Source: Apoderus coryli (taxonomy: Eukaryota; Arthropoda; Insecta; Coleoptera; Attelabidae). From it: a stretch of 64,000 bases of DNA. Positions 30,075-62,345 of the stretch are shown here, piece after piece. Below the pieces are notes generated by a model. That model made no database searches, was not told the origin of the DNA, and saw only the letters and a program-made list of their open reading frames with translations. The stretch's first letter is position 1; each line of letters starts with the position of its first letter. The DNA lies in contig OU452201.1 in NCBI GenBank assembly GCA_911728435.2, positions 29,884,001 through 29,948,000 of the forward strand, given 5' to 3'. A program made the position numbers and the translations under genes.

Positions 30075-30810
30075 AAAAAGACCCTTTTTCGAACGCCTGT
30101 GTGAACCAGTTCATTTATGTAACATTTTTTAGATTATATTCTATCACAACTACGAAAAATTATTCCGAATTCCGAATAAGTTTAGGAAGTATATATGTTT
30201 TTATTTTGACCCCTTTTACACTATTTACGAACACCTATGAAAACAAGTTATTTATAACACATTTTCTAGGTTATATTCTATCAAAGCTCTAAATAACTAG
30301 TCAATATTTCTGCTATGTTTAAGAAATACGTTTTTTCTAACCTTTTTACCCCATTTTACACTTTTTTTGCATGTCAATGTGGTCTAATTGTTTAGGTTAA
30401 ATATTTTAGGTTATATTTAATTAAACGCACACAAAATTATTCAATATTTCGGATAAGTTTAAGAACTATGATTTTTTAAATTTTTGACCCCTCTTTTAAA
30501 CCCCTTGCCTACGCTCAATGTTAATCACCACCTATAAATATTCTGTAGTATTTTCGTACCAAATGTGGTTAAAATCCGTTAAAAAGTGGTTTTTGAATTA
30601 TCACGGATACAAATATTTTCTCTTTTATAGAATTTTCACGGACGCCTATGGTACATTAATTTTTGTCGTGTGTTTTGAACACCAATTCAACTATTTAAAT
30701 ATAAAATTTTTTACATTTTAATTTTTATTTTACCCCTTTTTCTACTATTTACGAACGCCTATGTAAATTAAATATTTATGCTGCATTTTTTAGGTTATCT
30801 TATATCAAAG

Positions 30811-30845
<35 letters not shown>

Positions 30846-31595
30846 GCCAATTTTTCTGGTATATTTGGAAAACATTTTTTTTTCGTTTTTGACCCTTTTT
30901 TTAGACTATTTTCGAACGCCTGTGTGAACCAATTCTTTTATGTAACATTTTTTAGGTTATATTCTATCACAACTATAAAAAATTATTCCATATTTCGAAT
31001 AAGTTTAGGAAATATATATTTTTTATGTTTTGTCCCCTTTTCCACTATTTACGAACGCCTATGAAAGTAAGTTATTTCTGACACATTTTATAGGTTATAT
31101 TCTATTAAAGCTATAAATAATTAGTTAATATTTCTGCTATGTTTAAGAAGTACGTTTTTTTTAAATACTTTTTACCCCATTTTACACTATTTTCGAACGC
31201 CAATGTGGTCTAATATTTTATGTTAAATATTTTAGGTTATATTCAATTAAATGCGTAAAAAATTATGCAGTATTTCGGATAAGTTTAAGAACTATGAATT
31301 TTTTTAATTTTTGAACCCTCTTTTAAACCCCTTGCCTACGCTCAATGTTTCCCAAAATCTAATTAGCTCCTTGGCATGTCCAATAGTATTTTTGTACCAA
31401 ATTCGGTTAAAATCTGTTAAGCGGTTTTTGCGTTTTCGTGCATACAGACAGACAGACAGACTGACAGACAGACATTTTTGAAAACTACTTATTTATGTAT
31501 AAAATGACCAAAAACAAGTATTTCCGGTGAAATTAAAAAAAAAATTTTTTCATGAAACTAATAGTCTCTATATTACATATATGATATGGAGTGCT
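30075..31595 (-). mobile_element. HINE-like element, second copy, inverted and truncated
   Basis: It is the inverse of 15749-17400. It has the AGCACTCCATATC end at 31595, the CTGT microsatellite shortened at about 31442-31474, and the same 'aggcgttcg' repeat blocks. It runs out at about 30075 without the 3' hairpin. A (TA)n expansion lies at about 30812-30842. The two copies are diverged by many substitutions, so the family is not recent here. Confidence 0.75.
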
Positions 31596-33166: not shown

Positions 33167-33243
33167 TAACTACACAAAAGTGATAGATATTTTTAAGGAC
33201 TTAGACGTAAGTATTTTATTTCCTATCTTGAACAATCCATTCT

Positions 33244-33690
33244 ACAGGGTGTCAGGAAAAAGGAGATCAATCCGTTAATCACAGATTCTTTGAGCAAAAA
33301 TAAGTTTTAAGATGTCATTTTTCATTTTAGCCCTCCATGTTCGATATACAAGGCGTCAAAGTTGAAAATTTAAAACCAATATTTTTAAATAATTATAGTA
33401 TTTATTGAGATATTGGATTCAAATTTAGTATGTTGCTTCAGCCTAAAGAGCTACTTCTTTCCAAAAAACAACACAAAAAACCATTTCTTAATAGCCAAAA
33501 TACGGGATGTTCAGTACTCATTGACCCCCCCAAGTTTTTATTACGTACGCCAATGACTTTTAAACTAAGTTTTTATAGGTTGCTATGTATTTTTGAATAT
33601 TTTTTAACTCTTATAAAATTTTGATAAAATCATTTGTTTTTGAGATATTTGGAAAAGTATTGGCTGTTGTTTGATGCCTCGCTGGCTCTG
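33244..33690 (-). repeat. Dispersed repeat with ACAGGGTGTC end, copy 1
   Basis: This is the inverse of 46819-47260 over about 445 bases with moderate divergence. Its outer end is ACAGGGTGTC, the end motif of mariner-like elements common in insects. No coding content. The inner end ('ctcgctggctctggc') has no partner TIR that I can see. Confidence 0.75.
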
Positions 33691-34044
33691 GCTAAACATA
33701 TAATGTTGAAATATCAAGCCACTCTGGTGTTACCTTGGATACCAGTGTGAAAACAGCAGTTAAAATTCTAGCAGTTAATTCCGAACATTGCCGAATGGAG
33801 TATACCGGGGTGAATGATGATTTACATCAAATTGATGCAATGCAAATGCAAACTACATGTAGTATCATTAATATAAGTTAATTTACTTATATGGTAATAA
33901 TTATTTGTCAATAAATAAATATTTCGACAGACATATTTGAGGTTAGAATATCAATTAATTCAAATGTTGTGTTCAGAGTGGTTATATACTACTAATATCA
34001 AGAAATTCATATATAAATAACATATATATTTCAGTGATATAATT
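33691..34044. other. Spacer before the satellite; nothing recognised
   Basis: No feature that I can support. Confidence 0.4.
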
Positions 34045-37000
34045 ATCAGAGCCGTATTATTAATTTTTAAGCCCCCAACAACATTATAGCTGCTGACCTT
34101 ATAGCTCAAAACTCGCTAGGCGTGCCACTTTGAAATTTATAGCATAGATAGTCCTCTACATGTCCTTTGAACTCATATATGTTAGAATGACTTACACCCC
34201 GTCAGAGCCGTACTATATGATTTTTTTATTCCGGGATAATATTTTAACTGCTGACCCCATATCTCAAAACTGGCAACGCGTGCCACCTTGGAATTTATAG
34301 CATAGAGAGTCCTCAACATACCCTTTGAACTCATATATGTCAGAATGACTTACACCCCGTCAGAGCCGGACTATCTGATTTTTTTGTTCCGCGACAGGTT
34401 TTAACTGCTGAACTCATAGCTCAAAACTGGCAAGGTGTGCCACTTTGAAATTTATAGTATAGATAGTCCTCAAAATGTCCTTTGAACTCATATATGTCAG
34501 AATGACTTACACCCCGTCAGAGCCGTACTATATGATTTTTTTATTCCGGGATAATATTTTAACTGCTGACCCTATATCTCAAAACTGGCAAGGCGTGCCA
34601 CCTTGGAATTTATAGCATAGAGAGTCCTCAACATTCCCTTTGAACTCATAAATGTCAGAATGACTTACACCTCGTCAGAGCCGGACTATCTGATTTTTTT
34701 ATTCCGCGACAGGTTTTAACTGCTGAACTCATAGCTCAAAACTGGCAAGGTGTGCCACTTTGAAATTTATAGCATAGATAGTCCTCAAAATGTCCTTTGA
34801 ACTCATATATGTGAGAATGACTTACACCCCGTCAGAGCCGTACTATATGATTTTTTTATTCCGGGATAATATTTTAACTGCTGACCCCATATCTCAAAAC
34901 TAGCAAGGCATGCCACCTTGGAATTTAAAGCATAGAGAGTCCTCAACATACCCTTTGAACTCATAAATGTGAGAATGACTTACACCCCGTCAGAGCCGGA
35001 CTATCTGATTTTTTTATTCCGCGACAGGTTTTAATTGCTGAACTCATAGCTCAAAACTTGCAAGGTGTGCCACTTTGAAATTTATAGCATAGATAGTCCT
35101 CAAAATGTCCTTTGAACTCATATATGTGAGAATGACTTACACCCCGTCAGAGCCGTACTATATGATTTTTTTATTCCGGGATAATATTTTAACTGCTGAC
35201 CCCATATCTCAAAACTAGCAAAGCATGCCACCTTGGAATTTAAAGCATAGAGAGTCCTCAACATACCCTTTGAACTCATAAATGTCAGAATGACTTACAC
35301 CCCGTCAGAGCCGGACTATCTGATTTTTTTATTCCGCGACAGGTTTTAACTGCTGAACTCATAGCTCAAAACTGGCAAGGTGTGCCACTTTGAAATTTAT
35401 AGCATAGATAGTCCTCAAAATGTCCTTTGAACTCATATATGTGAGAATGACTTACACCCCGTCAGAGCCGGACTATCTGATTTTTTTATTCCGCGACAGG
35501 TTTTAACTGCTGAACTCATAGCTCAAAACTGGCAAGGTGTGCCACTTTGAAATTTATAGCATAGATAGTCCTCAAAATGTCCTTTGAACTCATATATGTG
35601 AGAATGACTTACACCCCGTCAGAGCCGTACTATATGATTTTTTTATTCCGGGATAATATTTTAACTGCTGACCCCATATCTCAAAACTAGCAAGGCATGC
35701 CACCTTGGAATTTAAAGCATAGAGAGTCCTCAACATACCCTTTGAACTCATAAATGTGAGAATGACTTACACCCCGTCAGAGCCGGACTATCTGATTTTT
35801 TTATTCCGCGACAGGTTTTAACTGCTGAACTCATAGCTCAAAACTGGCAAGGTGTGCCACTTTGAAATTTATAGCATAGATAGTCCTCAAAATGTCCTTT
35901 GAACTCATATATGTGAGAATGACTTACACCCCGTCAGAGCCGTACTATATGATTTTTTTATTCCGGGATAATATTTTAACTGCTGACCCCATATCTCAAA
36001 ACTAGCAAGGCATGCCACCTTGGAATTTAAAGCATAGAGAGTCCTCAACATACCCTTTGAACTCATAAATGTGAGAATGACTTACACCCCGTCAGAGCCG
36101 GACTATCTGATTTTTTTATTCCGCGACAGGTTTTAACTGCTGAACTCATAGCTCAAAACTGGCAAGGTGTGCCACTTTGAAATTTATAGCATAGATAGTC
36201 CTTAAAATGTCCTTTGAACTCATATATGTGAGAATGACTTACACCCCGTCAGAGCCGTACTATATGATTTTTTTATTCCGGGATAATATTTTAACTGCTG
36301 ACCCCATATCTCAAAACTAGCAAGGCATGCCACCTTGGAATTTAAAGCATAGAGAGTCCTCAACATACCCTTTGAACTCATAAATGTCAGAATGACTTAC
36401 ACCCCGTCAGAGCCGGACTATCTGATTTTTTTATTCCGCGACAGGTTTTAACTGCTGAACTCATAGCTCAAAACTGGCAAGGTGTGCCACTTTGAAATTT
36501 ATAGCATAGATAGTCCTCAAAATGTCCTTTGAACTTATATATGTGAGAATGACTTACACCCCGTCAGAGCCGTACTATATGATTTTTTTATTCCGGGATA
36601 ATATTTTAACTGCTGACCCCATATCTCAAAACTGGCAAGGCGTGCCACTTTGGAATTTATAGCATATATAGTCCTCAACATATCCTTTGAACTCATATAT
36701 GTCAGAATGACTTACACCCCGTCAGAGCCGGACTATCTGATTTTTTTATTCCGCGACAGGTTTTAACTGCTGAACTCATAGCTCAAAACTGGCAAGGTGT
36801 GCCACTTTGAAATTTATAGCATAGATAGTCCTTAAAATGTCCTTTGAACTCATATATGTGAGAATGACTTACACCCCGTCAGAGCCGTACTATATGATTT
36901 TTTATTCCGGGATAATATTTTAACTGCTGACCCCATATCTCAAAACTAGCAAGGCATGCCACCTTGGAATTTAAAGCATAGAGAGTCCTCAACATACCCT

Positions 37001-37673
37001 TTGAACTCATAAATGTCAGAATGACTTACACCCCGTCAGAGCCGGACTATCTGATTTTTTTATTCCGCGACAGGTTTTAACTGCTGAACTCATAGCTCAA
37101 AACTGGCAAGGTGTGCCACTTTGAAATTTATAGCATAGATAGTCCTCAAAATGTCCTTTGAACTTATATATGTGAGAATGACTTACACCCCGTCAGAGCC
37201 GTACTATATGATTTTTTTATTCCGGGATAATATTTTAACTGCTGACCCCATATCTCAAAACTGGCAAGGCGTGCCACTTTGGAATTTATAGCATATATAG
37301 TCCTCAACATATCCTTTGAACTCATATATGTCAGAATGACTTACACCCCGTCAGAGCCGGACTATCTGATTTTTTTATTCCGCGACAGGTTTTAACTGCT
37401 GAACTCATAGCTCAAAACTGGCAAGGTGTGCCACTTTGAAATTTATAGCATAGATAGTCCTCAAAATGTCCTTTGAACTCATATATGTCAGAATGACTTA
37501 CACCCCGTCAGAGCCGGACTATTTGATTTTTTTATTCCGCGACAGGTTTTAACTGCTGAACTCATAGCTCAAAACTGGCAAGGCGTGCCACTTTGAAATT
37601 TATAGCATATATAGTCCTCAAAATGTCCTTTGAACCCATATATGTCAGAATGACTTACACCCCGTCAGAGCCG
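34045..37673 (+). repeat. Satellite array: 23 monomers of 157/158 bp, dimeric higher order
   Basis: Monomer starts ('gtcagagccg') fall every 157 or 158 bases from 34045 to 37664. Two types alternate: 'gtactatatga...ccgggataat' and 'ggactatctga...ccgcgacagg'. This gives a 315-bp dimer repeated about eleven times. The alternation breaks at 35304/35461 and 37350/37507, where two of the second type are adjacent. Private variants recur 629 bases apart (36532/37161 'gaacttatat'; 36661/37290 'agcatatata'), showing a four-monomer duplication. The array lies inside the HIPK-like intron. No ORF runs through it. Confidence 0.95.
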
Positions 37674-37689
37674 TACTATTTATTTTCTT

Positions 37690-38030
37690 CATTAAGCGAC
37701 AATGGTTTAACTATAAATATCTACGTCATAAGCAAAATAATAAATAATGAATGTTTGAATTAAAAATAAAGTAGATATAATTTTAAATTAGATTATTAAG
37801 TTAACTTGTTTTTTATCATGCTTTTTTTTTAAGGAAAGCTCTACTTCGTCAATTGAGTAAACCCAAATATGGTCGTTTGCAGTATAAAAATGATGTTGAC
37901 TTTATTTGAGGATGAATGACATGTTCTCAGAAATTTTCAAAAGTTTGGTCCCACTCTATTAAACGTCTGTACTGTATGGTTCCAACTGTAGCTTTTAGCA
38001 CGAGATATCAAATGACAACAAGATGTAAGG
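37690..38030. other. Spacer; nothing recognised
   Basis: No feature that I can support. Confidence 0.4.
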
Positions 38031-38460
38031 GACGACATCTAGTGTGAGCAGGCAATATGCCCGGTAAAACAAAATTTACAAGCGATGGCCGGTCAAGAAG
38101 TAAGAACTCCATTAAATCCTATTGCCAACACTAAATACGCCTGAATTCCCTAGTGGGAGGCTTTATTTACGAAATGTTTGTTACACAATCTAACAAGACT
38201 TTAAGTAAGTTTGAAATGTGTTTCACACTATGGCGCTTTCACTTTGAGCATATTATTACATTATGTAACAAGCATTCGTAAATAAAGTCTTTCGTCAGGG
38301 ATTTCGGGCGCATCTAGTGTTGGAAATAGGATTTATTGGAGGTGTTTACTTTTTGTCCGTCCAACGTTTGTAAACTTTTTTCACCAAGCACATTGCCATC
38401 TCACACTAGTTGTCGCCACATACATTTTGTTGTCATTTACTATATTTATTTTTTCACCAT
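38031..38460. mobile_element. Hammerhead-element family, palindromic copy
   Basis: 38031-38191 and 38262-38416 are diverged inverse copies. Each aligns with the body of the 331-bp hammerhead unit at 20.3-21.1 kb: 'cgtaaataaag', 'ggcgc(a/g)tctagtgttgga', 'actagttgtcgcca' and so on. The hammerhead core itself is absent here. The head-to-head layout resembles the inverted start of the 20.3 kb array and the palindromic insert at 61.1 kb. Confidence 0.65.
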
Positions 38461-39315
38461 GCAAAATAGTTTGCTAGAAGGAACACCAAATGAAAGCAAA
38501 AGATTTTGAAGGCCAATAATTATGTGTTTAATAGTAATTATTATTTAATCGAATGTATTTTTATCTGGTTTACGCAACCGTCCAGCAAGAACCAACGAGG
38601 AGGTGTAGAGCGCTCTTGCCTGAAGGGGTAGATATTAAGACATTTTTCGGTAATAAGATAATAATTTTAATTAAAAATCTTTAAAAAAATAGTACAACTA
38701 GAACATACCTTGGCTAACTAAGCGTTACTTGAGTGTTACTACTTATACCGAAAAGTGACCTATTTAAAAGGAATAGGAAGGATTCTTTGGAATGGAATTT
38801 GGTTTAGAACCGGTTAGTAAGAAAACAAAAATATTATTTTAAATATAAAAATTAAAAATAATAAGAATAAAAATTATAAAACGTAACGTAATAAAAAAAT
38901 CGCATAACGTTTCTTCATGGACGTTCGACCTGTCAAATAAACTAAACTGATGTCACATCGATCAATCACATCATCGAAAACTAACAAAACGTATATTCTA
39001 AAAACAACATAATAAGTACAAATAATATAACAAACAAAATAAAATCCATGTCTCTATGAGTCAACAAAAATAAACTTAAAAACAATCGGTTAATCGATGA
39101 TCCAAACAGCTGTACTATCGAAGGTCAAAAACAAAACCAAATTAAAAATATATTCTAAAAATTTATAACAATAAATACGTGTTTCATGTTTTTGGCAAAA
39201 AATGTAATTTCACTGGTCATTTTTAGTTAATACTAGCGTTTCGAGAATTATTCACTCATTATTTATTTAATTGAAAATAGCTTTATTGGTGGACAGAAAG
39301 AACACAAAATTGTTG
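38461..39315. other. 3' flank of the large transposase gene
   Basis: AT-rich with no ORF. I looked here and in 43661-44241 for terminal inverted repeats that would bound the transposase gene and found no convincing pair. Confidence 0.35.
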
Positions 39316-42300
39316 TTAGTATTTTCGGCACAAAGAACACATGTTGCATTCAATAAAATTTGAATTATCATTCAGGGATTTATTGCATAAAGAATGAATA
39401 TTTCTATGGCAAAATTGACATTCTAAGGAAGTTGATTTATCAACAACATTACGTCCACATAATAAACATTTGTCGCCCATGTCCGACGATCTCCCTAAGA
39501 TAATCCGTTTTATGGTATCTCTATAAGAATCAATACCACACGATTCATCAAGAGGCTTACCTTCTAAAATGTTATTAAAAAAATAAATGATATATGGACC
39601 GCAATTATATTGATCTGTTTGAATAAGATGATTGAGGGAAAGAATTGAAAAATCGGTATGATCGATCGGTTTGTCCAAAATTGCCTGATATTGATTCCAA
39701 AAATGTTTGAATTTTTTGTAATATATGTCCGCCATTTTACGAGTTGAACCCATGGGATCTAAATATATAAAAGTTTTTAAACGAAAATCTATTAATATTA
39801 GACAGAAATGATTGCCACCGACGACTATAGGCATTGCAAGAGGCTTATCAAAAAATTTCACTTTTTTTAAAAAATCAGTTGAAAACGAACTAAAGTTTTT
39901 AAATATTTCGGTACCGATTATGTCCTCAACAATAGTGTATTTCTGATATTTATCCAAAGCTATCATTGCTAATGTAACAGTAGTACCAGTTAGCCACGAT
40001 TTGCCAGTTAAGGAATTAAAATCTGAAAATAAAAGTTCCTTTATTGTGATATCAGTGTCATCAAAAGTGGCAACAACATATTCGCGATCTACTTTTTGAT
40101 AAAAATTAATATTATTTACTAAACCATTGGGAAGTAAAATTATCTCATTTAGGGTTGTCCATTTTCTCGCAGCAAATAGGGGAATTTCATGGGATGGTAG
40201 TAATAAAGCTGGCATGTAATAAAAATAATAAAAAAATTTTAATCGGGGAAACATTATATTCCAAAATTTAGTGTCCCTACGAATTCTTTCGATTTTTAGA
40301 TCCACCGTAGTGTAGATAACAAAATCACACCAAGGGCGGTTGGTTATTTCTAAAAGTCCTTGAATTTGACAATAGTACTCATGCGTAGTTTTCAAGTTGC
40401 CAGAAGAATCCAAGTAAGCAAGGATATTTCTATCAATTTTGGAGTTTCGAATGCTATAAGGGCACTTTACCTCAATCAATCCATCATCATCAATAAAACC
40501 GTCGGGAGATCCTGCGATATAATTATGTTGTTTATGAATAACAAGTCCAGCTTTTTTGAAATGACATTTGGTTTGAGAAACATATAATTTGATGGCATTA
40601 TTTTCATTAGTAACTCCATAATTTACTGAAGGAATGTTACATAAATTGCGATTCTGCAATATTTGTTTGGCTAAATTGATCTTGCGCTTCTCACTAGAAC
40701 CTGTAAAAACTTTGCCAAAATTTGAAGCAGTTAGGCGAACTTGTCGTTCTCTAACCCAGATAGTAGAGCTTCTCTGTCGTACCGTCTCTTCTTGAATCAA
40801 ATTCATCGCTCGAGGGGACAGTGTCAAGGTTTGCAAGTGTTGCAAACACTTTTCGCGAATAGTTGTTTCAGCCTGACAGTGTATATTGATGATATCGACA
40901 GTTGGGTTGCTTAAGCAAAGACGACAAACAAATGCTCCAGAATAAGACTTTTCTAGCGTAGAAGAGTCACATTGCTGATGAATCCATCCATTACACGTAT
41001 CGCATTGGACCCAGTCGGCAGTTGCATCTAGTCTTCCGCGTAAACAATATAAGCATTTGTCAAAAACTGTGTCATTTTGACCAACGTCTTGAAATGATTT
41101 AAGATAATTGCCAGAAAAATGTGTGGTAATTGATGTTTTTGGTCTTTTGCACCAACTCTCTTGAGATGTGTATTCATCTGAACTCAAATCTTTACTGAAA
41201 AGCCTTTTTCTCGCAAGTCCTTTTTTCGGTATGTTTAATTGAATTTCTTTGTAAACAGAGAGTACATTTATTCTACTTTTTCTAATAAATCGTGAAGCCT
41301 TTAGGTTTTTTTGACCCTCTAACAAAATATTTTTTAACTGTCCAAAATAATTTTCCACAACAGAGTTACTTAATCTATCTATTTTGTATTCTTTTCTAAT
41401 TAAAATCCCTGTCCACAATGGACAAAATGGCATATATTTAATTAAAACTAAATTTAAGAATTCTGGATTATAAAATACATTTTTTTCTAATTTTCGTTCA
41501 CTAGACACTAGTACATGTTTATCAAACAACATTTTAAAATATTTATAAAAAGGACTGCGCTTATATAGGGCAGTCTCGCTTTCGTCGATAGGGGCAACAG
41601 AAATATCACAACTATCTGAATTATAAGTACTGTTGACATTTTCAATATTATTATGCATAGCAAATAAACGTGTTTTAGCAACAACAACTTGGTTGCTTAC
41701 ATCCACAGATAATAAAAGTGTTGTTAAATCAGTAAACCAGTTAGATATGACAGTAATATCCTTTTGAAGAATACAAATAGCCAACAAATTTTTTAAAATT
41801 CCTTCAAGCTCTTTTTCATCTTTAAAATGCAGCGCAACATCTTTGGACACCATTTTCATAAAGTGGGCGCAACACATATGTATTGTAATTATATTAGAAT
41901 CCAAATGTTTATTATTAAACGCAACTTCGAAAGTTAAATCTAAATATTCATAAAGCAATAAACGATTACATGCTTTGGTGATTGCGTGGATATTTGCAAA
42001 TGAGAAATCTGTAACAACAGCACCAAATGCTGGCCATTTATTATGCTCTTCGCAGAAGGTTCTAAATTCATTAAAAATTTTGAAAATTGTTTTTGAATTA
42101 TGGTTCGATGACAACATTTCAAAAATAGGGACTATCCTCTTGTTCTGTATATGATTAATAACTCCAGAATATAGATAAACTCGATTATCCATTGAATTTA
42201 CTTTTCTTGCAATACTGCCAGTTGCATCAAAATGAATAATTGGAGGAACGTCCATAAGAGTTTGTTGATTTTTTAAAATGTGTAATTGTTCCATACTATA

Positions 42301-43660
42301 TGTTTTGACGCAAAATGGAATACATACTTCTTGCAAGTACTCTGGATGATCGCGTTGCATTTTAATTAAGTCTAATATATCGTCCTTATCTCTATCTAAT
42401 TGTGCTAGCGCATCTGATCTAATTTTGCGAACAGTTGAATCAGATTTAATTTCTCCAAGATTTTGAGTTTTTAATATGAATTGGGAGTTACTATTTATAA
42501 TATCATTGGCTTTTATAACAGATGGTTTTTTACTTAAACAATCTTGCATTTTTAAAACTCGTTTAATACCCTTTAAGTATGATGTCACAAATTGATGATG
42601 CGAAAAGTTCAATCCTGAACTATATACCATAACAACTAAATCTGGATTAATAATAATTTTAAATTTTTTGCATTTATATGCATTATGTTTGCAGACAGCA
42701 AAAATAGTAATATTTTGTTTCGAGTAATTTGTATATTTAAATATTATGTTGCAAGTATTATTGGCCGATTGAGAAATTTTTTGTTTTAAATATGAAGGCG
42801 CATAATAAGCATTTAATTTAGAATTTTCTGATACCAATTGCCATGCCCTTTCCGAAATATTAAATGTTCCTTCGAAATGATTACAGTCTTTGTAAGTACA
42901 AGTCGGTAGATTATCGAGATTTTGAGATCCGCGGGGTAAAAGCTCATCATTATCACATTTAGCATTACTAAATAATTCGTAAGGCATCGGTTTTTTTTCA
43001 GGAGTCGGTATAATTGGTTCTTCATAGTTTTCACTTTCATGATTAACACACGTTGGAACAATAATGAAAGATGGTTCTGAGCTTAAACCATCATTTTCTA
43101 CAAGAGAACTGTCGCTGCATCTATGATTTGCAATAGGTGAAATAGGTTGCCAATCTTCGTGATTTATTGTTATATCCTCTACATTTGGAGTTGAGCAGAA
43201 TATAATTGGCAAAGAATCGTTTCTATTAAAATATTGTTTACATATTTTATGAATTAACTTTCTATTTATAACAGAGTTTTTTTTACTAAGTATTTTACAT
43301 AAGTTTCCAAAAAAAAAAATTAATGTCTTTCCTATATCCTCCGACTTTCAAAAAATCTTCTGCCGAAAATTTCAAATTGGCCAAATAGTTAAAAGTTTTA
43401 CTTTCTAAAGTTTGTTTTTCACAGTTTTCAATATTATTTGCAAGTACCTGCTTAAATTTATCATTGTTTCTCTTAATATACAAAGAAATTTGACTTGGAA
43501 ATACTTTTTTCTTAGTAGTACTTAAATGATTCGCTATTTCGTGCAATATAGGATCGTTATTTTTTAATAAAGACAACCTATCAATCGTGATTTCCGGACA
43601 TACTTTTAATATTACATTTATAATTTTGTCTAAATAGCTTTGTGTAGTAGTTTCAACCAT
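39316..43660 (-). pseudogene. Composite transposase: MULE-like DDE, PHD, YqaJ nuclease, Ulp1 protease, PHD; one frameshift
   Basis: The ATG at 43660 opens a 121-codon frame that ends at 43295 just after an 11-T run. One T fewer would join it to the 1298-codon frame ending at 39316, whose own first codon is TTG. In that second frame: a Cys/His cluster (about 170-206) before a DDE-like core with D329 (HFDATG), D402 (VTDFSFAN), C447-C448-H450 and E620 (VENYFGQLK). Next is PHD finger 1 (C720, C723, C737, C740, H745, C748, C763, C766). Then a YqaJ/PD-(D/E)xK nuclease (E870, D904 in GSPDG, E914-x-K916, Q949/Q951). Then a Ulp1/C48 protease with H1135, D1152, Q1198, C1204. Last is PHD finger 2 (C1249-C1295). 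All key residues are present, so the copy looks young. It is intronless and lies antisense in the HIPK-like intron. No TIRs were identified. Confidence 0.8.
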
Positions 43661-44241: not shown

Positions 44242-44341
44242 NNNNNNNNNNNNNNNNNNNNNNNNNNNNNNNNNNNNNNNNNNNNNNNNNNNNNNNNNNN
44301 NNNNNNNNNNNNNNNNNNNNNNNNNNNNNNNNNNNNNNNNN
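44242..44341. other. Assembly gap (100 N)
   Basis: A run of exactly 100 N, the conventional scaffold gap of unknown length. The left part of the following mariner-like gene may be missing within it. Confidence 1.
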
Positions 44342-44389
44342 GGATACCTACTTAAGCAATGTTTTATTGTTGTCAAATTAGTATTTTAA

Positions 44390-44935
44390 CAAGCATCAAG
44401 GAGACACCAAATATTAGTACCAGAGTTCTTGCCCGACAGGTTGAAAACATTGGCCAATCTGAAGTACACCAGTTTTTAAAAAGACAGCAGCTTTACCCCT
44501 ACCACATTCAATAAGTACAATATCTGCTGCCTCATGACCTTGAGCTGAGATCTAGACTATGTAGGTGGATATGTGAAATGCATAACAGATATATACACTT
44601 CATCAAAAATATTTTGTTTATGGACGAAGCTACCTTTACTAGAAACGGGGTACCAAATAGTCATAATACACATATCTGGGCAGAAGAAAATCCTCAGGCC
44701 GTAGTAGAGACACATCATCAAGTAAACTTCAAGGTCAACGTGTGGGTTGGTGTCGTGGATAATTTCTTTTTGGGTCCTGTAATTTTACCAGGGAATTTGA
44801 TTGGTGATTCATTTTTAGCATTTTTTCAAAACATACTGCCCGAATTACTTGACGATTTGCCTCTCTTAATTAGATAAAACATTTGGTTTCAACACAAGCA
44901 CAAGCACATTTTGCTAGGCATGAAAGGAGATACTT
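44390..44935 (+). pseudogene. Tc1/mariner-like transposase, 5' part
   Basis: The frame reads a helix-turn-helix ('TPNISTRVLARQVENIGQ' ... 'LYPYHIQ', then a TAA stop). It continues to 'FMDEATFTRNGVPN', 'HIWAEENPQAV' and 'VNVWVGVV', the DDE core around the first Asp of an insect mariner-like (IS630-superfamily) family. The second catalytic block, normally QHDGAPAH, is degraded to 'FQHKHKH'. The gene is split at AAAGGAGATACTT by a LINE (44936-46287) and resumes at 46288. It is dead because of the stop codons and the lost Asp. Confidence 0.85.
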
Positions 44936-46287
44936 GTAGATTGTTTTTCGGAGTCGTTTAGGCGGTTTGCCTCCCCTCACTTCGACCTGCAGAAGATCTT
45001 TTGTGAATGACTCTAATCTATGAATTGCCCAGCTGTCCCACACTTTTCATAAAGTTGATGATTTCTCTGGGGGCTAAATTCCTTGCCTCTTCGGGTGTTA
45101 GGGTCACCCCTCCAAGGTGTTTTAGCCTTTTGCAGAAAAGTGCCATGCATTCACAGAGCACGTGTTCTGTTGTCTCTGTTGCGTCCTCGCAAAACCAAAA
45201 AGTGTCGTCCTCGGTTAGGCCCATCTTTTTGAGATGGTACTTCACTGGGTGGTGTCCCGTAAAAAGGCCTGTAATTCGCCCTAGGTCGCTTCTCTCCAGT
45301 TGGATAAGCTTCCCTGTGTTGGCCCCTGAAGGTTTGATAAACCTGTTTGATTGTCTTAGGCCTGGAGTGTTTCTCCAGTAGGACTTCAAGTTTTTCCTTT
45401 TCCCATCTCCGAAGTTCTTCCTTCATATGGCTTTTTGGAAGGCCAAAGAACGGAGCGTTGGCGTCCTCTTTTGCAAGTTGTTCCGCCGCTTCGTTCCCCT
45501 CTATGCCTTCATGCACCCATGTCAGAGTAATCTTTTTGCCCTGAGCTGCCAGTTGCTTTAGGGTCTGTTTGCATTCCTATGGTAGCTTTGACGTGAGGGT
45601 GTAAGACCTGAGTGCTTTTAACGCAGCTTGACTGTCTGACATAATATTGATCTGCCGTTCCGGGATGCCTCTCTGCAGGCATTCTTGAGCACAACGATTA
45701 ATAGCGTTGATCTCTGCTTGGAATATAGTGGGACTTTACCCGAGAGATTCAGAGAGCCTGCAATTTGGCCCGTAGACTCCCATGCCTGTGTTCCCTTCTA
45801 TTCCTTTTGAACCGTCTGTATACCAGACGGATGTATTTTCTGGGAATCGTGGTTCCCATTTAGTCAATTTTGACGGTCTGCAATGACCACTTCAAATGGG
45901 AGCTCAAAATCATGTTTGCGTGGCAAAGCGTCCGACGGTTTTCTTCCTGAATCCAAAGGTATTAGATTCAGGATTCCCATGTGTCCCTCTAGATCGCCAG
46001 ATTTGTATTCCATTACCTGTGCCAGTTTCAGAGCGCTAATTGCTGCCTCTTTTTTGACTAGGACAGGCAAAGTTATTAGATGCAGCAACGTTTCCATCGC
46101 TGCTGTGGGGAAGTTCGCATTACCCCTGTTATTCCTAAACATGCAAGCCGTTGCAACTTTTGAAGACGGCATTGTGTATGCTTAATATTAACTTTTGGCC
46201 ACCATACTAATGAGGCGTATGTAACCAGGGGTTTAATGACTGTTTGGTACACCCAGTATGTGAGCCTACCGAGTAGCCTGTAAAAAA
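44936..46287 (-). pseudogene. LINE-C 3' segment (RNase H, zinc knuckle), 5'-truncated insertion
   Basis: It is flanked by a 13-bp duplication, AAAGGAGATACTT (44923-44935 and 46288-46300). Reading the minus strand: 'YWVYQTVIKPLVTYASLVWW' and 'LQRLACLG' (RT thumb/connection), RNase H blocks 'WYTDGSKG', 'FQAEINAI', 'MSDSQAALKAL' and 'EGIEGNEAAEQLA', then a C-terminal zinc motif 'TTEHVLCEC'. Several frameshifts and stops are present. The 3' end stops at 44936 without a poly(A) tail. The clade is a Jockey-superfamily member with RNase H, not assigned further. Confidence 0.85.
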
Positions 46288-46593
46288 AAAGGAGATACTT
46301 ACATGAAAACTTTCCCCAACGCTGGATTGGGCGAGGCCAAGATGCTCCTCTTAAATGGCCACCCCGATCCCCAGATCTTACTCTCTTGGACTATTCAGTC
46401 TGGGGTCGTATGAAAGATTTTGTTTATAAGGTTCCGATTTTGAGTGAAAATCATTTAATAGAGAGAATCTTACAAGCTGGGGAAGACTTTAGGTTGAAGC
46501 CTCATATTTTTCAAAGACTAAGATTTTCTTTACGAAAAAGAGCTTGCATATGCATTGAAAAAAATGGGGGTCATATCGAGCAATTTCTTTAGA
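46288..46593 (+). pseudogene. Tc1/mariner-like transposase, 3' part
   Basis: It resumes with 'RRYLHENFPQRWIGRG', then 'WPPRSPDLTLLDYSVWG' (third catalytic Asp region) and runs to the stop at 46593. Joined across the LINE by one copy of the 13-bp duplication, it is in frame with 44390-44935. Confidence 0.85.
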
Positions 46594-46818: not shown

Positions 46819-47260
46819 GAGCCGCGTAGACAACAAGAGCCAATACTTTTCAAAATATCTCAAAAACAAATGATTTTATCTAAATTTTATGAGTTAAAAA
46901 ATAATCAAAAATACATAGTAACCTATAAAACCTAGTTGAAAAGTCATTGGCGTACGTAATAAAAACTTGGGGGGTCAATGGGTACTGAACATCCCGTATT
47001 TTGGCTATTAAGAAATTGTTTTCTGGCTTGTTTTTTGGAAAGAAGTAGCTGGTTATGCTGAAGCAACACACTAACTTTGAATCCAATATGTCAATAAATA
47101 CTAGAATTATTTAAAAATATTGGTTTTAACTTTTCAACTTTGACGCCCTGTATATCGAACATGGAGGGCTAAAATGAAAAATGACATTTTAAAACTCATA
47201 TTATTTCTGCTCAAGGAATCTGTGGTTAACGGATTGACTTCCTTTTTCCGGACACCCTGT
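46819..47260 (+). repeat. Dispersed repeat with GACACCCTGT end, copy 2
   Basis: This is the inverse counterpart of 33244-33690, ending in the same terminal motif at 47251-47260. It may be the 3' untranslated end of the mariner-like element just upstream, or an independent MITE. Confidence 0.75.
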
Positions 47261-47430
47261 ATAATAGTATGGATTAGGAACTTCTACAAATATTCATGAA
47301 ATTGTTTTACTCCTCCGACTATATAGAATTGAATCGGGCATAAAGACCATTAGGTGGTTCCAATCACCTATACATATTCATCAACTACACAGCGTGGATA
47401 ATTTCCAAAATTATTATTATTATTATTATA

Positions 47431-51684: not shown

Positions 51685-53004
51685 ATGAATATGTTTCCGG
51701 AGGGGGGCCCATCAGGGCTCCCCTCTGTTAGTACAAATGTTATACCAAATAGACTTGTGATTAATCATTATAGATATTGTGACACTCCACCATATCTAAT
51801 TATACTAGAAAGCCAAGATCAAAATGTAGGAAACTTACACCCAATAAAGTTGGGTCGAATTCTTAAAAATAACAATGTAAATGGAGCAGTAAGCATTTCA
51901 AAAAAAGGAAAAAACCGGTTAGGCATCGAATTCTCAACATCCAAAGCGGCAAACGAATTTATGAAACACGAGATAATTGAAAAATATAAATTTGAAACAT
52001 ACATTCCAACAAGCCTTGTTACATCAAAAGGTGTAATTAGAGGAATTCCAACTGATATGACGGACCAAGAAGTACTGAACGAAGCTAAAGCATCAGCCCC
52101 AATTTTGGCAGTCAGAAGACTGAATAGAAGAATAGTTAATAATGACCAAGTTGTATATTCACCAACTGAATCTATGGTTGTTACATTCCAAGGAAAGTTA
52201 ATTCCCAAAGAGGTTGATATTGCTTACTACAAGACCAAAGTGTATGTATACATAAGCCCAGTGCAGCAATGCAGCAACTGTTTAAGATATGGCCATAACA
52301 CTAAACAATGTAGAAGTAAAATACGCTGTCCAAATTGTGCTCAAGAACATAAGGAGGAGGATTGTCAATCACCGCCTAAATGTATATTTTGTAGTCGGGA
52401 TCATAAGGCTAACGACAAAAAATGCCCTGAATATGAAAGACAAAAAAGTATAAAACAAACAATGTCTTTTGAAAACATATCATATATGGAAGCCAAAGAA
52501 AGATTTCCGCCAATAAACAACAAACCTAATAATCAAACATATACTAAAACGCCATTAGAATATCCACAACTTAAAGTCAAACCCAATCAAATAAATACAG
52601 TTGTTCAAATTCACGAAAGAAGACATTACACGAACGCAAATAGAGTTACACCAACATACAGTATGATAGCCTCTCCCAGGAAACGCAAACCATCGTCGCC
52701 AACTCAGGGATATGATAGAATAGAGCACCGAGAACAATTATTTCCTCAACCCACTAGAACACCTAATAGATCGCCTCCACTGTCATTAAACACTCCACAG
52801 AACCATAACCTGGAATCAGACGAGCCACAAAATTTGGATATTGTTGACCTGAATCAATTAATTAACAACATAATCAGTCAAACTAGCTACGCAAATGACC
52901 CACAACTAAGAAAAGAGATGAACAACCTAGCACATACTTATAGCTCCGATTTCGATCAAACACAAGACAGTATCATTCCACCCACCGATGAGGAATTTTA
53001 CTAA
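51685..53004 (+). CDS. I-clade LINE ORF1 (Gag-like RNA-binding protein), 439 aa
   Basis: Binds element RNA to form the retrotransposition particle. The N-terminal half has the RNA-recognition-like fold common to insect LINE Gag proteins (inferred from blocks such as 'GVIRGIPTDMT'). Three zinc knuckles follow: C196-C199-H204-C209, C215-C218-H222-C227 and C233-C236-H240-C247. The C-terminal 190 residues are low-complexity Pro/Asn/Gln-rich. The stop TAA at 53002-53004 overlaps the ORF2 start by 17 bases in another frame, so ORF2 probably depends on reinitiation or a similar mechanism. The ATG at 51685 is preceded by a short upstream frame ending ten bases earlier. Confidence 0.9.
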   Translation: MNMFPEGGPSGLPSVSTNVIPNRLVINHYRYCDTPPYLIILESQDQNVGNLHPIKLGRILKNNNVNGAVSISKKGKNRLGIEFSTSKAANEFMKHEIIEKYKFETYIPTSLVTSKGVIRGIPTDMTDQEVLNEAKASAPILAVRRLNRRIVNNDQVVYSPTESMVVTFQGKLIPKEVDIAYYKTKVYVYISPVQQCSNCLRYGHNTKQCRSKIRCPNCAQEHKEEDCQSPPKCIFCSRDHKANDKKCPEYERQKSIKQTMSFENISYMEAKERFPPINNKPNNQTYTKTPLEYPQLKVKPNQINTVVQIHERRHYTNANRVTPTYSMIASPRKRKPSSPTQGYDRIEHREQLFPQPTRTPNRSPPLSLNTPQNHNLESDEPQNLDIVDLNQLINNIISQTSYANDPQLRKEMNNLAHTYSSDFDQTQDSIIPPTDEEFY

Positions 53005-56000
53005 TCTTAAAATCATGCAATGGAACATAAGAAGTATCAAAGCAAACCTTATCAAGCTTAAACTATTGCTAGAATCGGAAAAGCCGGATATATTACTACT
53101 AAACGAAACATTTCTGAAAAATGACACCCAATTTCACCTTCCGTTCCACACTATTATTAGACAAGACCGTATCGATGGATATGGGGGAATAGCATGTGTT
53201 ATCAATAATGCGCACGCACATGACATCCATCCTATAGACCAAACAATACTGCAAGGTAATATGCAAGTCCTAGCCATTAAGACATACAATATAACAATTG
53301 CCACTGTATATTCTCCACCTAATTATGTCCACTCGATTGCAGACTATACACAATTACTCCAACAAGTTCCTGGACCAACTATTATAATGGGCGACTTCAA
53401 CGCACAACATACAGCATGGGGTTCATACATCACAAATACGAGAGGTAGAAATTTGTTGGACGCTATGGACAATGAAAACTTTGTTTTCTTGAACACTGGG
53501 TTACCTACCAGGATTAAACCAGGTGGTACCAGTTGTTGTGATATTGCTTTGTGTACGGCGAACTTGGCTAAGAGTTGTAATTGGTCAACCCACGATGATC
53601 CAGGTATGAGCGACCACATCCCCACCATATGTCAATTCACACCCAATAATAAGGATATGCCAAAAACGACAACAAACTTCCCTATAAAGAGGTGGAAGAC
53701 TAGTAAAGCAGATTGGAAGAAATATGAAACATATACAGATAAATATGGCGAAAGTAATTATATACAACTCATAGATCGAATTGATAAAGCAGCAGAAATG
53801 AGTATACCAAGGACAACGATTAATATAGGTATGAAACGCACCATCAGTAAACCAGCGTGGTGGGACCCTTCTTGCCAAGAAGTGTGTGTTGATAGAGCTA
53901 ACAAATTGAAAATATATTTAAATAATATCAGTGAAGTGAACTATTTAAATTATAAGAAAAGTGCTGCTAAAGCCAGAAGACATATCAGGAAAACAATGAA
54001 AAGCAAATTCAAGGAATTTTGTCACACTCTCAATAGAGAAACACCTATAGCCAAGATATGGCAGATAGTCAAGAAATTTAGCATACCAAAACATCATCAA
54101 CAAAAAACGAACTCAGAACAGTGGATCAAAGACATGCTTGTGGATTTATGCAACATGCAAATTGATGGTGAACCTGAAAATTTGCCATATAATAACACTC
54201 ATAGCAGTAAACCTTTCATTATGCAGGAATTACAACTTGTGCTACAATTTAAAAAAGAAAAAGCACCAGGACACGACAATATTACAGTTAATATGCTTAA
54301 AAACCTTTCATACACAGCTAAACAAAACCTACTTGATATTTACAATGAAATACTGAATGGACAAAACATACCGATGGAATGGAGAAAGTACATAATTATT
54401 CCACAACTAAAACAAGGTAAAAATCCGGAACAATTCCAGAGTTACCGGGCGTTAGCTCTCACCTCATGCGTGGCGAAAACAATTGAAAGCCTGATCAAAA
54501 ACCGCTTGGAATACATAATGGAACAACAAAAGACATTCGATGACTTCCAAAATGGATGTAGGAAAGGTACAGGTATTGTGCAAAACATCACTTCATTATC
54601 CATTAACATCTATAATGCATTTAGCATAAATAAAGTAGCGATAGTGGTCTTTCTGGACCTTACGGCAGCATTTGATAGGGTCAACATAAATAAATTACTC
54701 AGAAGCATGAATGACTTGAACATTAACTCTGATATTATAAAACTTATCAACAATATATTAAATGAAAGACATTTATATATAAGATCTCCCAATACAGGTG
54801 AATTAGTGGGACCAAGAACAACCACTACGGGATTGGCACAGGGGTCGCCGTTGAGTCCATTGCTTTTTAACATCTACATGACATCACTTAAAAATGAAGT
54901 TCAAGGCCAAGTTCAATTGCTGCAGTATGTGGATGACCTGGTGCTAATTTGTGTTGCAGATCACGTTCATTGTGCGGTGGTAGATATTAATCGGACATTG
55001 ACCAATATTCATAGATGGATGTTTGACAGAAACATGCTCATCAACATTGGTAAATCTAAAGCAATGGTATTTTCGAAGGGTCATAGACGAACAAAGCCAC
55101 AACCAATCAGTATAAACAATGACCCTATAAATTATGTAACTGAATTTAAGTACCTGGGTGCGTGGTTTGATGAACATATGAGATGGACTAAGCACATTGA
55201 CTACTGCGTTAACAAAGCAATACGAGGTATTAATGTGATGAAATCAATCACTCGAACTTGGTGGGGAGCTGACCCGAAGACTTTGAACACAATATACAAT
55301 GGCATAATTAGATCACACTTAGAATATGGATGCCAAGCAATATTACATACAAGTAAAGCTAACTGGAATAAACTTAATAAAATACATTACCAAGCGCTTA
55401 GACTGATTAATGGTTGTATGAGATCCACCCCTATTAATGCACTGTTGTCAGAAGCAGCAGAAATGCCGCTGAAAATCAGACGAGATTGGCTGTGTGTTAA
55501 ATTCGTTGGCAATAGCTTGGCTTTATCTAATAGCAAAATAGCCACCTTAATTTTGCAGTTGTACGAGTTTTTCAACGGTGGGCTGAATTATTGGAGAAGA
55601 AAACCTGCTCCATCTTTGGTGGAAGCTATGGACCATATGTTACAATTTTATCATGACTTATATAGATCAGAAAATAGACCATGTTATGAATTTTCTTATG
55701 AGATGCAAACTAGTTTGATACAATATCATCATTCTGGTTTAAAGAAAAAGGACATCGATGCTCAGCAACATTTCAGATATTTAATAAATCATAAATTCCC
55801 CAACTATACGGTGGCCTTCACAGATGCCTCTAAGTCTGAAAACACTAGCAGTATAGGCATATACTGTGCACCACTCGACATTAAACAAGGTAGAAGAATA
55901 ACGGACAATACGCAAATATGTACAGCGGAGACGCTAGCGGTAAGGGAGGCAATCAGGTTGATTGCACCACACACAAATAGATTACTCATTTGTACAGATT

Positions 56001-56671
56001 CACACAGTGCTTTACAGAGGATTGTGGCTAATAAAATATCTACAAAATCAGACTACATTACACTGAGCACCCGATATGAAATAATTTTAGCAAAGGTTCA
56101 TAATTGTAATATCGAATTATTGTGGATACCTGGTCACTCAGGGATAGAGGGTAACGTGAAAGCAGACGAAATAGCAGCCCTTAGTAGGAACACTGAGCAT
56201 GTTCAGCAACCTAACAAATTGCATTGGACGGAGGTGGCTTGCATTGTTAAGCGAGAACTACATCATGTTTGGCAGCAAATGTACAAAGATTGGGATCACA
56301 ATAAGGCGAAATCTTACAGAATAATGGCACCTACACCCAAAACTAAACCGTGGTACTGGCATATTAAATATATTAAGAGGAAATATATTACCACACTCTG
56401 CAGAATTCGTACAGGGCATTGTCTAACACCGGTACATCTCAACAAAATAGGAATTAAGGACAGTCCATTATGTAATTGCGGTCAATATGGTGACCTCAAC
56501 CATATATTCTTCAGCTGTACAATTAATCAAAGAAATTGCACATGGTTTTACGACGAAATGTCAAAAAAGTATCAATTGCCTATGCAAATCAGTAACATTG
56601 TGGCAGATCCTACGTTATCAACTCTGAAATCAATCGTCAAGTTCTTGGAACTCAGTGACATCCAATTGTGA
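52988..56671 (+). CDS. I-clade LINE ORF2: endonuclease, RT, RNase H, 1227 aa
   Basis: Nicks the target and reverse transcribes element RNA. APE-type endonuclease: E40, D136-x-N138 (MGDFNAQH), and D209-H210 (SDH). Reverse transcriptase: 'KEKAPGHDNITVNML' at about 424-438, motif A D557 (FLDLTAAFD), motif B 'GLAQGSPLSPLLFN', and motif C YVDD at 647-650. RNase H: D946 (FTDAS), E981 (AETLAV), D1004 (CTDSHSAL), and 'PGHSGIEGN' with D1060. A C-terminal Cys/His motif (CNCGQYGDLNHIFFSC) closes the protein. All catalytic residues are present and the frame is unbroken. Confidence 0.92.
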   Translation: MRNFTNLKIMQWNIRSIKANLIKLKLLLESEKPDILLLNETFLKNDTQFHLPFHTIIRQDRIDGYGGIACVINNAHAHDIHPIDQTILQGNMQVLAIKTYNITIATVYSPPNYVHSIADYTQLLQQVPGPTIIMGDFNAQHTAWGSYITNTRGRNLLDAMDNENFVFLNTGLPTRIKPGGTSCCDIALCTANLAKSCNWSTHDDPGMSDHIPTICQFTPNNKDMPKTTTNFPIKRWKTSKADWKKYETYTDKYGESNYIQLIDRIDKAAEMSIPRTTINIGMKRTISKPAWWDPSCQEVCVDRANKLKIYLNNISEVNYLNYKKSAAKARRHIRKTMKSKFKEFCHTLNRETPIAKIWQIVKKFSIPKHHQQKTNSEQWIKDMLVDLCNMQIDGEPENLPYNNTHSSKPFIMQELQLVLQFKKEKAPGHDNITVNMLKNLSYTAKQNLLDIYNEILNGQNIPMEWRKYIIIPQLKQGKNPEQFQSYRALALTSCVAKTIESLIKNRLEYIMEQQKTFDDFQNGCRKGTGIVQNITSLSINIYNAFSINKVAIVVFLDLTAAFDRVNINKLLRSMNDLNINSDIIKLINNILNERHLYIRSPNTGELVGPRTTTTGLAQGSPLSPLLFNIYMTSLKNEVQGQVQLLQYVDDLVLICVADHVHCAVVDINRTLTNIHRWMFDRNMLINIGKSKAMVFSKGHRRTKPQPISINNDPINYVTEFKYLGAWFDEHMRWTKHIDYCVNKAIRGINVMKSITRTWWGADPKTLNTIYNGIIRSHLEYGCQAILHTSKANWNKLNKIHYQALRLINGCMRSTPINALLSEAAEMPLKIRRDWLCVKFVGNSLALSNSKIATLILQLYEFFNGGLNYWRRKPAPSLVEAMDHMLQFYHDLYRSENRPCYEFSYEMQTSLIQYHHSGLKKKDIDAQQHFRYLINHKFPNYTVAFTDASKSENTSSIGIYCAPLDIKQGRRITDNTQICTAETLAVREAIRLIAPHTNRLLICTDSHSALQRIVANKISTKSDYITLSTRYEIILAKVHNCNIELLWIPGHSGIEGNVKADEIAALSRNTEHVQQPNKLHWTEVACIVKRELHHVWQQMYKDWDHNKAKSYRIMAPTPKTKPWYWHIKYIKRKYITTLCRIRTGHCLTPVHLNKIGIKDSPLCNCGQYGDLNHIFFSCTINQRNCTWFYDEMSKKYQLPMQISNIVADPTLSTLKSIVKFLELSDIQL

Positions 56672-60702: not shown

Positions 60703-61212
60703 GATAATTTTTTACTTTGTAGATATCAAAAATTTGATTGTCAATCTGACGTTTAATAATTTTCAATACAAAATGTATTAGTTTTAATCAAAGAAATATT
60801 ATTCATTTTTATTTAAAACTGTAGTTGTGAAAAGTACAATTGGTAAATGTTATATTGGAAGAAGAGTTTGCTGAAGTTGACGGATTGTTAATTTCCACTG
60901 TTGAAGAAATTCCTCGCATGGTGTTGATTATTTCACCATGGCGTTCTTGGTTAATATTCAAGTACTGTTTAATTGAATTAGAGCTGCTATGTCCTGTTAT
61001 TTTTATTAATTGCTGTTTAGGAATTCCTTTATTTGCCAAATAGCTAACTGCAGTTGATCTGGTCGAATGATTGGATATCTTTTTACACTTAGTGTGCAAA
61101 CCAATAGCTTGAGCGGATGATTTGGTCCACATATTAATTGTGTTCTTGAATATTCTTGAAATAAAAGTCGACCTCCACACAATAAATTTAATAAAAATCC
61201 TCAACAAATGTC

Positions 61213-61401: not shown

Positions 61402-62345
61402 GACATTTGTTGAGGATTTTTATTAAATTTATTGTGTGGAGGTCGACTTTTATTTCAAGAATATTCAATTATTCTACTCCACTTCAGTATGGACTACTTC
61501 TTTCGAATGAATTGTGTTCTTGCCTACCGGTATATTGTCAAACAATGTGTCACTTTCGGATTTCCAGAAACGATTTGGTCTCAAGAATATGCGACTGGAA
61601 ATAATATTTTTCCCCCTTTTGGACAATAATTTATGGAGTAACCGAACAGGGCATGCACGTTCGTTTGCAATATTTGGAACAAGCCACTTACTATTTGTAC
61701 AACTTTTCGATCCTCCTTTGCATGTTTTACTGAATATTGGATTGTATTCAATTCTGTTGGTTGGCGTTCCATCATTATTTTTCTCAATCGTGAAATAATC
61801 TATAAGGCAATCAGCTGGTTCACCACCTCGCCAAGCTCAACAGCTACAATATGGTATTTTTTTTTTGTAAACCTTCTGGTGTACATTCATCCCATAATCC
61901 AATGATTCTAGCCAAATCACTTGAACTCAAATTTGATGGACTGCATTTTCGTTTGTTTGGATCCTGCTGTAATCTTTTACGTTTTGCATTTCTTGCATAT
62001 CGCGCATTTTTCACACTGGTAAACGAGTCGAATACAATTTTGAAGTCATTGAAGTATTTTTTTGGGAGTAGCCTACTCGTAGTATTCCAAATTGTTTTTA
62101 CAGTTGCTTCTTTATATTCGGTTCCGTCAGCTTTTCTCATATTTACCGCATAATCTTTCAATATATTAGCCAAATTATGCAAACTCGTTTCAGCATTCAG
62201 TTCGTATTCTCTGGTCGCACAAAACTCGAGAAATATTTTCCATACATACGAGTATTTTTTTGATTGGATTGTATTTTTTTGGTATATTATTAGATATAAT
62301 ATCATTAATTGCATCGTTAGATGCAATACCAAATCTTCGTGACAT

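Follow-up and report, generated by a model that had tools for sequence, protein, structure and literature searches.

Rehavkus DNA transposons have been in Repbase since 2006 and are little described in the literature searched. In the covered text of PMC6446971, they are characterized by a 9-bp target-site duplication (TSD), one open reading frame (ORF), a PHD finger, terminal inverted repeats (TIRs) of 26-400 bp (Table 1 of that paper) and a minisatellite before the 3' TIR; they occur in Arthropoda and Annelida and are placed as an outgroup of Mutator-like elements (MULEs) and Mutator elements. According to the sections covered of PMC4482050 and PMC9179366, ISL2EU elements of the PHIS superfamily encode a YqaJ exonuclease and a DDE transposase. 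Ulp1 has been reported in Ginger1, once together with a PHD finger, and in Mutator elements, for which it was proposed to play a part in transposition (PMC2836005, in the part covered). The element described here was found in a window of 64,000 nucleotides, the whole stretch analysed, from the beetle Apoderus coryli (contig OU452201.1, positions 29,884,001 to 29,948,000). It encodes a protein that joins a DDE-like region to YqaJ and Ulp1 domains and a pair of PHD-type fingers, and is very probably a Rehavkus-type DNA transposon, MULE-related and foldback-like. An earlier note on this DNA, made from the sequence alone, knew of no named superfamily with this combination, a view that gives way to the match in anatomy with Rehavkus.

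The outer end of the element was fixed at position 33741 by copy-to-copy comparison, and the element runs from there past the assembly gap (44242-44341), well outside the interval 39316..43660 initially singled out as its gene. The genome (428 Mb, 129 contigs) was searched with the terminus of subfamily A, the subfamily of the window copy, which is approximately 340 bp long and starts ACCAGTGTGAAAACAG. This yielded 42 places, of which 28, matched up by their orientation and spacing, delimit 14 elements between 2.4 and 29 kb long; the other 14 places stayed unpaired. A perfect 9-bp TSD was present in all 14 chosen end pairs, every word being different. The alignment of genomic copies proposed in the earlier note delivered the end, the inverted termini with their arrays, and the TSD. 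The 9-bp word adjoining the terminus of the window copy has no second occurrence in the window on either strand. As a separate observation, an inverted repeat of about 430 bp with 91.6% identity (33239-33671 / 46832-47265) has one copy immediately beyond the element's left end. Fifteen near-identical Rehavkus-like ends were also seen on a single contig (G000:C12, 3.08-3.52 Mb) at a spacing of about 22-48 kb, which suggests repetition of a large block. Two of these ends (L057 and L058) are abutted head to head by a subfamily A end.

In sister copies, an array of the same 157-bp unit stands in the opposite orientation upstream of the ORF, which is a foldback arrangement. Inverted arrays were found in subfamilies A, B, C and D, with units of 157, 156, 164 and 158 bp, respectively, and the element thus possesses long inverted ends of foldback type, built of a unique terminus and a tandem array of 156-164 bp units. 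The outer segment of about 340 bp lies within the 26-400 bp range given for Rehavkus TIRs; with the arrays included, the inverted ends reach several kb. The array units of A and B were homologous (score 191, shuffle maximum 29). For B and C the score was 28 against a shuffle maximum of 26 (none of 200 mononucleotide shuffles reached 28), and the other pairs scored 25 (C-D, reached by 3 of 200 shuffles), 21 (A-D, 8 of 200), 21 (A-C, 23 of 200) and 20 (B-D, 38 of 200). Since these scores are weak or do not exceed those of shuffles, only the A-B homology is taken as clear, and elsewhere position and unit length have been kept with the sequence largely replaced. Satellite units of such a length are common in general, and unit length is therefore given little weight. 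An imperfect palindrome of about 430 bp in the 3' non-coding part (approximately 38005-38443), common to sister copies, may be a nested miniature inverted-repeat transposable element or a structural part. A candidate end of subfamily B, taken from the flank of L016, occurred at five genomic places and was not accepted as a terminus; the true outer ends of subfamilies B and C were not found.

Along the 1298-aa protein of the window copy, the order of domains is DDE-like region, PHD, YqaJ, Ulp1 and a second C4HC3 finger. The YqaJ (3.2e-13, residues 819-959) and Peptidase_C48 (1.4e-9, residues 1096-1224) matches in Pfam were above their curated cut-offs, and the PHD match (PF00628, 3.2e-5, residues 720-766) was barely so (24.3 vs 24 bits). 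Searched against PDB sequences, the protein matched a phage exonuclease, ChlaDub2 and Ulp1, and KDM5B, and the family profile retrieved phage exonuclease at 6.6e-24 and SENP1 at 8.4e-15. Protein relatives with a named source come from beetles (Phaedon, Ceutorhynchus), and a search for the telomere repeat (TTAGG)6 hit a single internal place, which gave no hint of the host. Together with the repeated boundaries and target duplications, the domain matches uphold the initial description of a mobile DDE element whose one protein carries YqaJ, Ulp1 and two PHD-type fingers. The single intronless frame that had been proposed over 39316..43660 stands for 39316-43212 and fails for 43213-43660, where a 121-aa N-terminal ORF lies in another frame. 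Because the sister copies L011 and L012 read straight through (1447 and 1442 codons, respectively), intact copies exist and the window copy is broken near its N-terminus; the intact copies of subfamilies A, B and C have one ORF each, of 1435-1450 codons.

The element has been recently active, is mobile and is not a host gene. Copy numbers are lower bounds (36 of 265 candidates were scored): the window subfamily comprises at least seven copies at 99-100% identity across the whole query (two have an internal stop), subfamily B at least seven copies at 80%, subfamily C at least two full-length copies at 46%, and subfamily D at least five copies at 38-39% over the DDE part. Fragments and a decayed copy of 87% identity were also found. 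Purifying selection acts on the domains, as seen from the ratio of nonsynonymous to synonymous substitution rates (dN/dS, Nei-Gojobori, single pair A-B), which was 0.117 for DDE, 0.085 for PHD1, 0.150 for YqaJ, 0.156 for Ulp1 and 0.261 for PHD2, with 0.533 for the N-terminus and 0.538 for the linker. For the A-C pair, synonymous sites were saturated and most domains gave no ratio.

Residue conservation was assessed in an alignment of 22 sequences, one from each of subfamilies A-D and 18 database relatives. Equivalents of D329, D402, C447 and H450 were present in all 22, and that of E620 in all 21 sequences reaching it. The His, Gln and Cys of the Ulp1 domain were kept in 19/19 sequences and the Asp in 16/19 (Asn in D, P0009 and P0010). 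At E values up to 0.01, Pfam C48 was found in 9 and PHD (PF00628) in 15 of the 17 members of A3. PHD1 gave its best PDB matches with the finger of KDM5B (1.2e-5) and with KDM5A (0.0025), aligned via DWVQCD and W-x-H. Two of its positions, which we take to be those of the H3K4me3 cage of KDM5A, are aromatic in every one of 19 rows (17 Trp and 2 Phe; 18 Trp and 1 Tyr), not counting two rows gapped at these positions and the D row, where the alignment of the region is faulty; PHD1 is accordingly predicted to read H3K4me3. The second finger is a complete C4HC3 finger. In the rows carrying the YqaJ domain, the PD-(D/E)xK residues (both Glu and the Lys 18/18; the Asp 17/18, P0011 having Gly) and the Gln (18/18) were kept; these rows exclude P0015, P0016 and P0019, which are cut short there, and D, in which the domain is absent.

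Table 1. Coordinates of the element's parts in the window, with the basis of each assignment
Feature	Position	Strand	Basis or remark
Presumed 9-bp target duplication, left copy	33732..33740		Adjoins terminus; partner lost past assembly gap
Outer terminal segment of left (3') inverted end, starts ACCAGTGTGAAAACAG	33741..34082	+	Paired copies end here; inverted at both ends in sisters
Tandem array, 157-bp unit, 22.9 copies (Tandem Repeats Finder), inner part of inverted end	34083..37701	+	Inverted upstream of ORF in sisters
3' non-coding part of element	37702..39315		Contains large imperfect palindrome
Transposase ORF (DDE - PHD - YqaJ - Ulp1 - PHD)	39316..43212	-	1298 codons; Pfam and alignment of relatives
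C-terminal C4HC3 finger (PHD 2)	39328..39468	-	8 ligands invariant in 15/15 rows
Ulp1/SENP cysteine protease: H1135, D1152, Q1198, C1204	39541..39927	-	Pfam, family profile, alignment
YqaJ / lambda-exonuclease-type nuclease: E870, D904, E914, K916, Q949	40336..40758	-	Pfam, family profile, alignment
PHD finger 1, C4HC3	40915..41055	-	Pfam; nearest PDB entries are KDM5B/KDM5A fingers
Putative MULE-like DDE core: D329, D402, C447xxH450, E620	41293..42234	-	Kept in relatives; MULE profile comparison
Transposase N-terminal part, off-frame relative to main ORF in window copy	43295..43660	-	121 aa; in-frame in L011 and L012
Assembly gap (N); right (5') array and end of element lost there	44242..44341		Comparison with sister copies

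Of the 19 sequences that cover the region in full, 18 carry YqaJ and only that of subfamily D does not. Four of the five ORF-bearing copies of this subfamily were read (L025-L028); their ORF has 1262 codons, and 3787 or 3788 of 3789 bases are the same as in L026 (99.95%). The fifth copy, on C118, has an open frame of equal length. In the copies read, the DDE residues are kept and the Ulp1 domain is present (1.6e-28), and a YqaJ profile found no match at E values up to 10 in any of the six frames of the four loci, the positive control L016 giving 2.2e-76. The ends of subfamily D start ACTTATGTGAAG, and the termini of A and D share AC-N3-TGTGAA. A perfect 9-bp TSD was found in six of eight D end pairs, including those of all five ORF-bearing copies (on C13, C17, C21, C118 and C5); the two others are one pair on C25 and a second pair on C13. 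Because elements lacking YqaJ have thus transposed recently, the nuclease seems not to be required in cis for transposition. The long arrays are retained in these elements. Subfamily D may have lost YqaJ or may never have had it; in the tree, D forms a long branch joined to P0009/P0010 (SH-aLRT 95.5, UFBoot 48), with the midpoint root on the D branch. A scan of viral contigs for relatives gave 61 stretches matching the pattern, of which two were confirmed, both over the YqaJ part only.

A different explanation would be that YqaJ is essential, for example in second-strand processing, and that subfamily D moves only with YqaJ supplied in trans from A-C. The near-universal presence of the domain and its dN/dS of 0.15 would fit such a requirement, and the terminal motif common to A and D makes cross-action conceivable. 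However, the D copies read combine intact ORFs and a retained Ulp1 with the missing YqaJ, the TSDs around all five ORF-bearing copies are perfect, and D shares just 38-39% identity with A where the two match, and we consider an essential YqaJ rather unlikely, if still the best placed of the alternatives. The earlier proposal of a second nuclease that cuts or resects DNA is narrowed by the apparent dispensability of the domain in cis.

Building on what was observed directly, namely the repeated ends, their inverted structure and the TSD length, the multidomain protein, its recent spread and the intact, selected catalytic sets, a mechanism can be proposed. Judging from knowledge of the family, the DDE core would cut at the terminus, where AC-N3-TGTGAA is found in two subfamilies, and insertion would proceed by cut and paste via 9-bp staggered cuts. 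PHD1, with its likeness to the fingers of KDM5A/B, is probably what anchors the complex on active chromatin, and Ulp1 probably strips SUMO from host proteins of silencing or repair, or from the transposase itself. YqaJ would act as an accessory exonuclease, most likely on the long inverted arrays, whose ends or hairpins it would trim or resect. In a bolder version, the protein would be a self-contained kit, in which PHD1 reads H3K4me3, Ulp1 serves as an anti-silencing device by stripping SUMO from factors of SUMO-dependent silencing or repair at the element, and YqaJ processes the hairpins or ends of the nucleosome-sized inverted arrays; we regard this version as unlikely. If it were true, a DDE core and a second nuclease of the lambda-exonuclease type would work in one chain, and the need for the latter could be tested against the YqaJ-less sister. 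The resolved recent ends, the five-module protein and a sister lacking one enzyme allow the roles of accessory enzymes in a DNA transposon to be asked, here a second nuclease, a SUMO protease and chromatin-type fingers. The element also shows that satellite arrays can be carried as components of transposon ends.

The assignment to Rehavkus draws on the 9-bp TSD (A and D), the PHD finger, the satellite in the inverted termini, the single ORF and a DDE core that appears related to MULEs. Several points weigh against it. Membership is judged by anatomy. In the covered text of PMC6446971 the minisatellite lies before the 3' TIR only, and here arrays occur at both ends, being seen on both sides in just 14 of 20 fetched copies, or 15 once L023 was extended; one side of L011 carries an unrelated 132-bp repeat, L017 and L021 have an array on a single side, and the fetched stretches of L024 and L025 stop short of the second side. 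No Pfam match covers the DDE core of the window protein, and the MULE domain PF10551 gave no match in that protein, in the 17 members of A3, or in L016, L023 and L026. When the family was compared, profile against profile, with 100 MULE-type proteins (L064 of the Apoderus coryli genome and homologues), residues 95-705 gave an E of 0.014 and an HH probability of 3%, and residues 290-660, a region trimmed after a first look at the longer one, gave a modest score of 30.3 (E 0.0028 for one comparison, probability 11%), while the best of 100 column shuffles scored 24.9 and the profile in reverse 16.1. In a low-threshold local alignment, both Asp residues and the CxxH are in register with those of the MULE proteins, and the catalytic Glu lies outside the aligned stretch; the global alignment failed. 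Finally, we infer the roles of PHD1, Ulp1 and YqaJ from sequence, and subfamilies A-C might provide help in trans to the one without YqaJ. The profile match modestly suggests a MULE-related DDE core with an RNase H fold, in line with the outgroup position given to Rehavkus in the covered text of PMC6446971.

These points leave some room for a separate, unnamed superfamily that resembles Rehavkus only through convergent arrays and a PHD finger. The likeness to Rehavkus is known by description rather than from Repbase sequence, and two papers treating Rehavkus use neither 'YqaJ' nor 'Ulp1' in their main text. On the other hand, the traits coincide as far as the covered sources describe them (9-bp TSD, single ORF with PHD, satellite in inverted termini, and a 164-bp unit in both Rehavkus-1_TC and subfamily C), and convergence on this scale appears improbable. 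The long ORF under purifying selection would also suit a domesticated host gene that acquired transposase and viral domains, an idea rejected for the whole family, because its many copies end in identical termini and the 9-bp TSDs of the 14 sites all differ; the single-copy host gene without repeated boundaries, which the earlier note had named as the finding that would overturn its view, is thereby ruled out. Insertion of an element into pre-existing satellite arrays, suggested by arrays flanking the ORF, is refuted for subfamilies A and D by the opposite orientation of the two arrays of one copy and by the shared terminus and then the TSD outside them.

Elsewhere in the window, an apparently intact non-long-terminal-repeat (non-LTR) retrotransposon was recognized by eye at 51685-56671, with a gag-like ORF containing CCHC knuckles (51685-53004) and an overlapping endonuclease-reverse transcriptase-RNase H-like ORF in a different frame (52988-56671). 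A Mariner-like transposase fragment within 44342-46500 (about 44400-44900 and 46300-46500) is split by the apparent RNase H part of a non-LTR retrotransposon, again by eye. Two tyrosine recombinase-like ORFs on the minus strand (60809-61207 and 61844-62332), possibly of Crypton type, were likewise noted by eye only, and an inverted pair of repeat-rich segments (30198-31582 / 15771-17156) shares about 88% identity over 1.4 kb.

Compared with known systems, ISL2EU resembles the present element as a DNA transposon with a YqaJ exonuclease besides its DDE transposase, but has YqaJ in a separate ORF, another transposase family with THAP or helix-turn-helix and the target A|AT|T, and neither PHD nor Ulp1 is mentioned in the covered text of PMC4482050 and PMC9179366. 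Ginger1 and Ulp1-bearing Mutator elements share a DDE transposase with a C-terminal Ulp1, and Ginger1-9_HM also has a PHD finger (PMC2836005, in the part covered); Ginger differs in its integrase-like core, and the term YqaJ is absent from the main text of that paper. In proteins with a PF20700 'Mutator' domain (P0017; L066, at G000:C12:3093872), a transposase domain comes before a YqaJ akin to the Rehavkus one, the Rehavkus YqaJ profile matching P0017 at 2.5e-48 and L066 at 5.9e-24, in one chain in P0017 and in neighbouring frames in L066. They belong to another transposase Pfam family, and no PHD was detected. An Ulp1-like H-D-Q-C in the tail of P0017, seen by eye, is weak (6.6 bits with filters off) and was not recovered by Pfam, the PDB search or the first profile search. 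By these matches, the PF20700 proteins represent another transposon group in which a similar pair of enzymes occurs.

Long inverted ends are shared with Foldback, Galileo and Tetris, those of Tetris being linked to tandem repeats, whereas Galileo is a P-superfamily element, as far as the covered sources go. For Rehavkus itself, neither YqaJ nor Ulp1 is named in the main text of PMC6446971; Repbase records aside, the domains could be undescribed rather than different. A second finger, present here, goes unmentioned in the covered text on published Rehavkus. No report of YqaJ in Rehavkus was found in the literature searched, which excluded subscription papers and Repbase Reports (Repbase may record these domains), and no paper joined YqaJ with 'Mutator-like transposase'. 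The kind of element is thus already known, and its possession of YqaJ and Ulp1 is apparently unpublished within that literature. The features held in common with Rehavkus-1_TC and Rehavkus-1_HR, according to the covered text of PMC6446971 and PMC10218199, are the 9-bp TSD, the one ORF, the PHD finger, the satellite termini and the relatedness to MULEs, with a satellite unit in Rehavkus-1_TC of the same length as in subfamily C.

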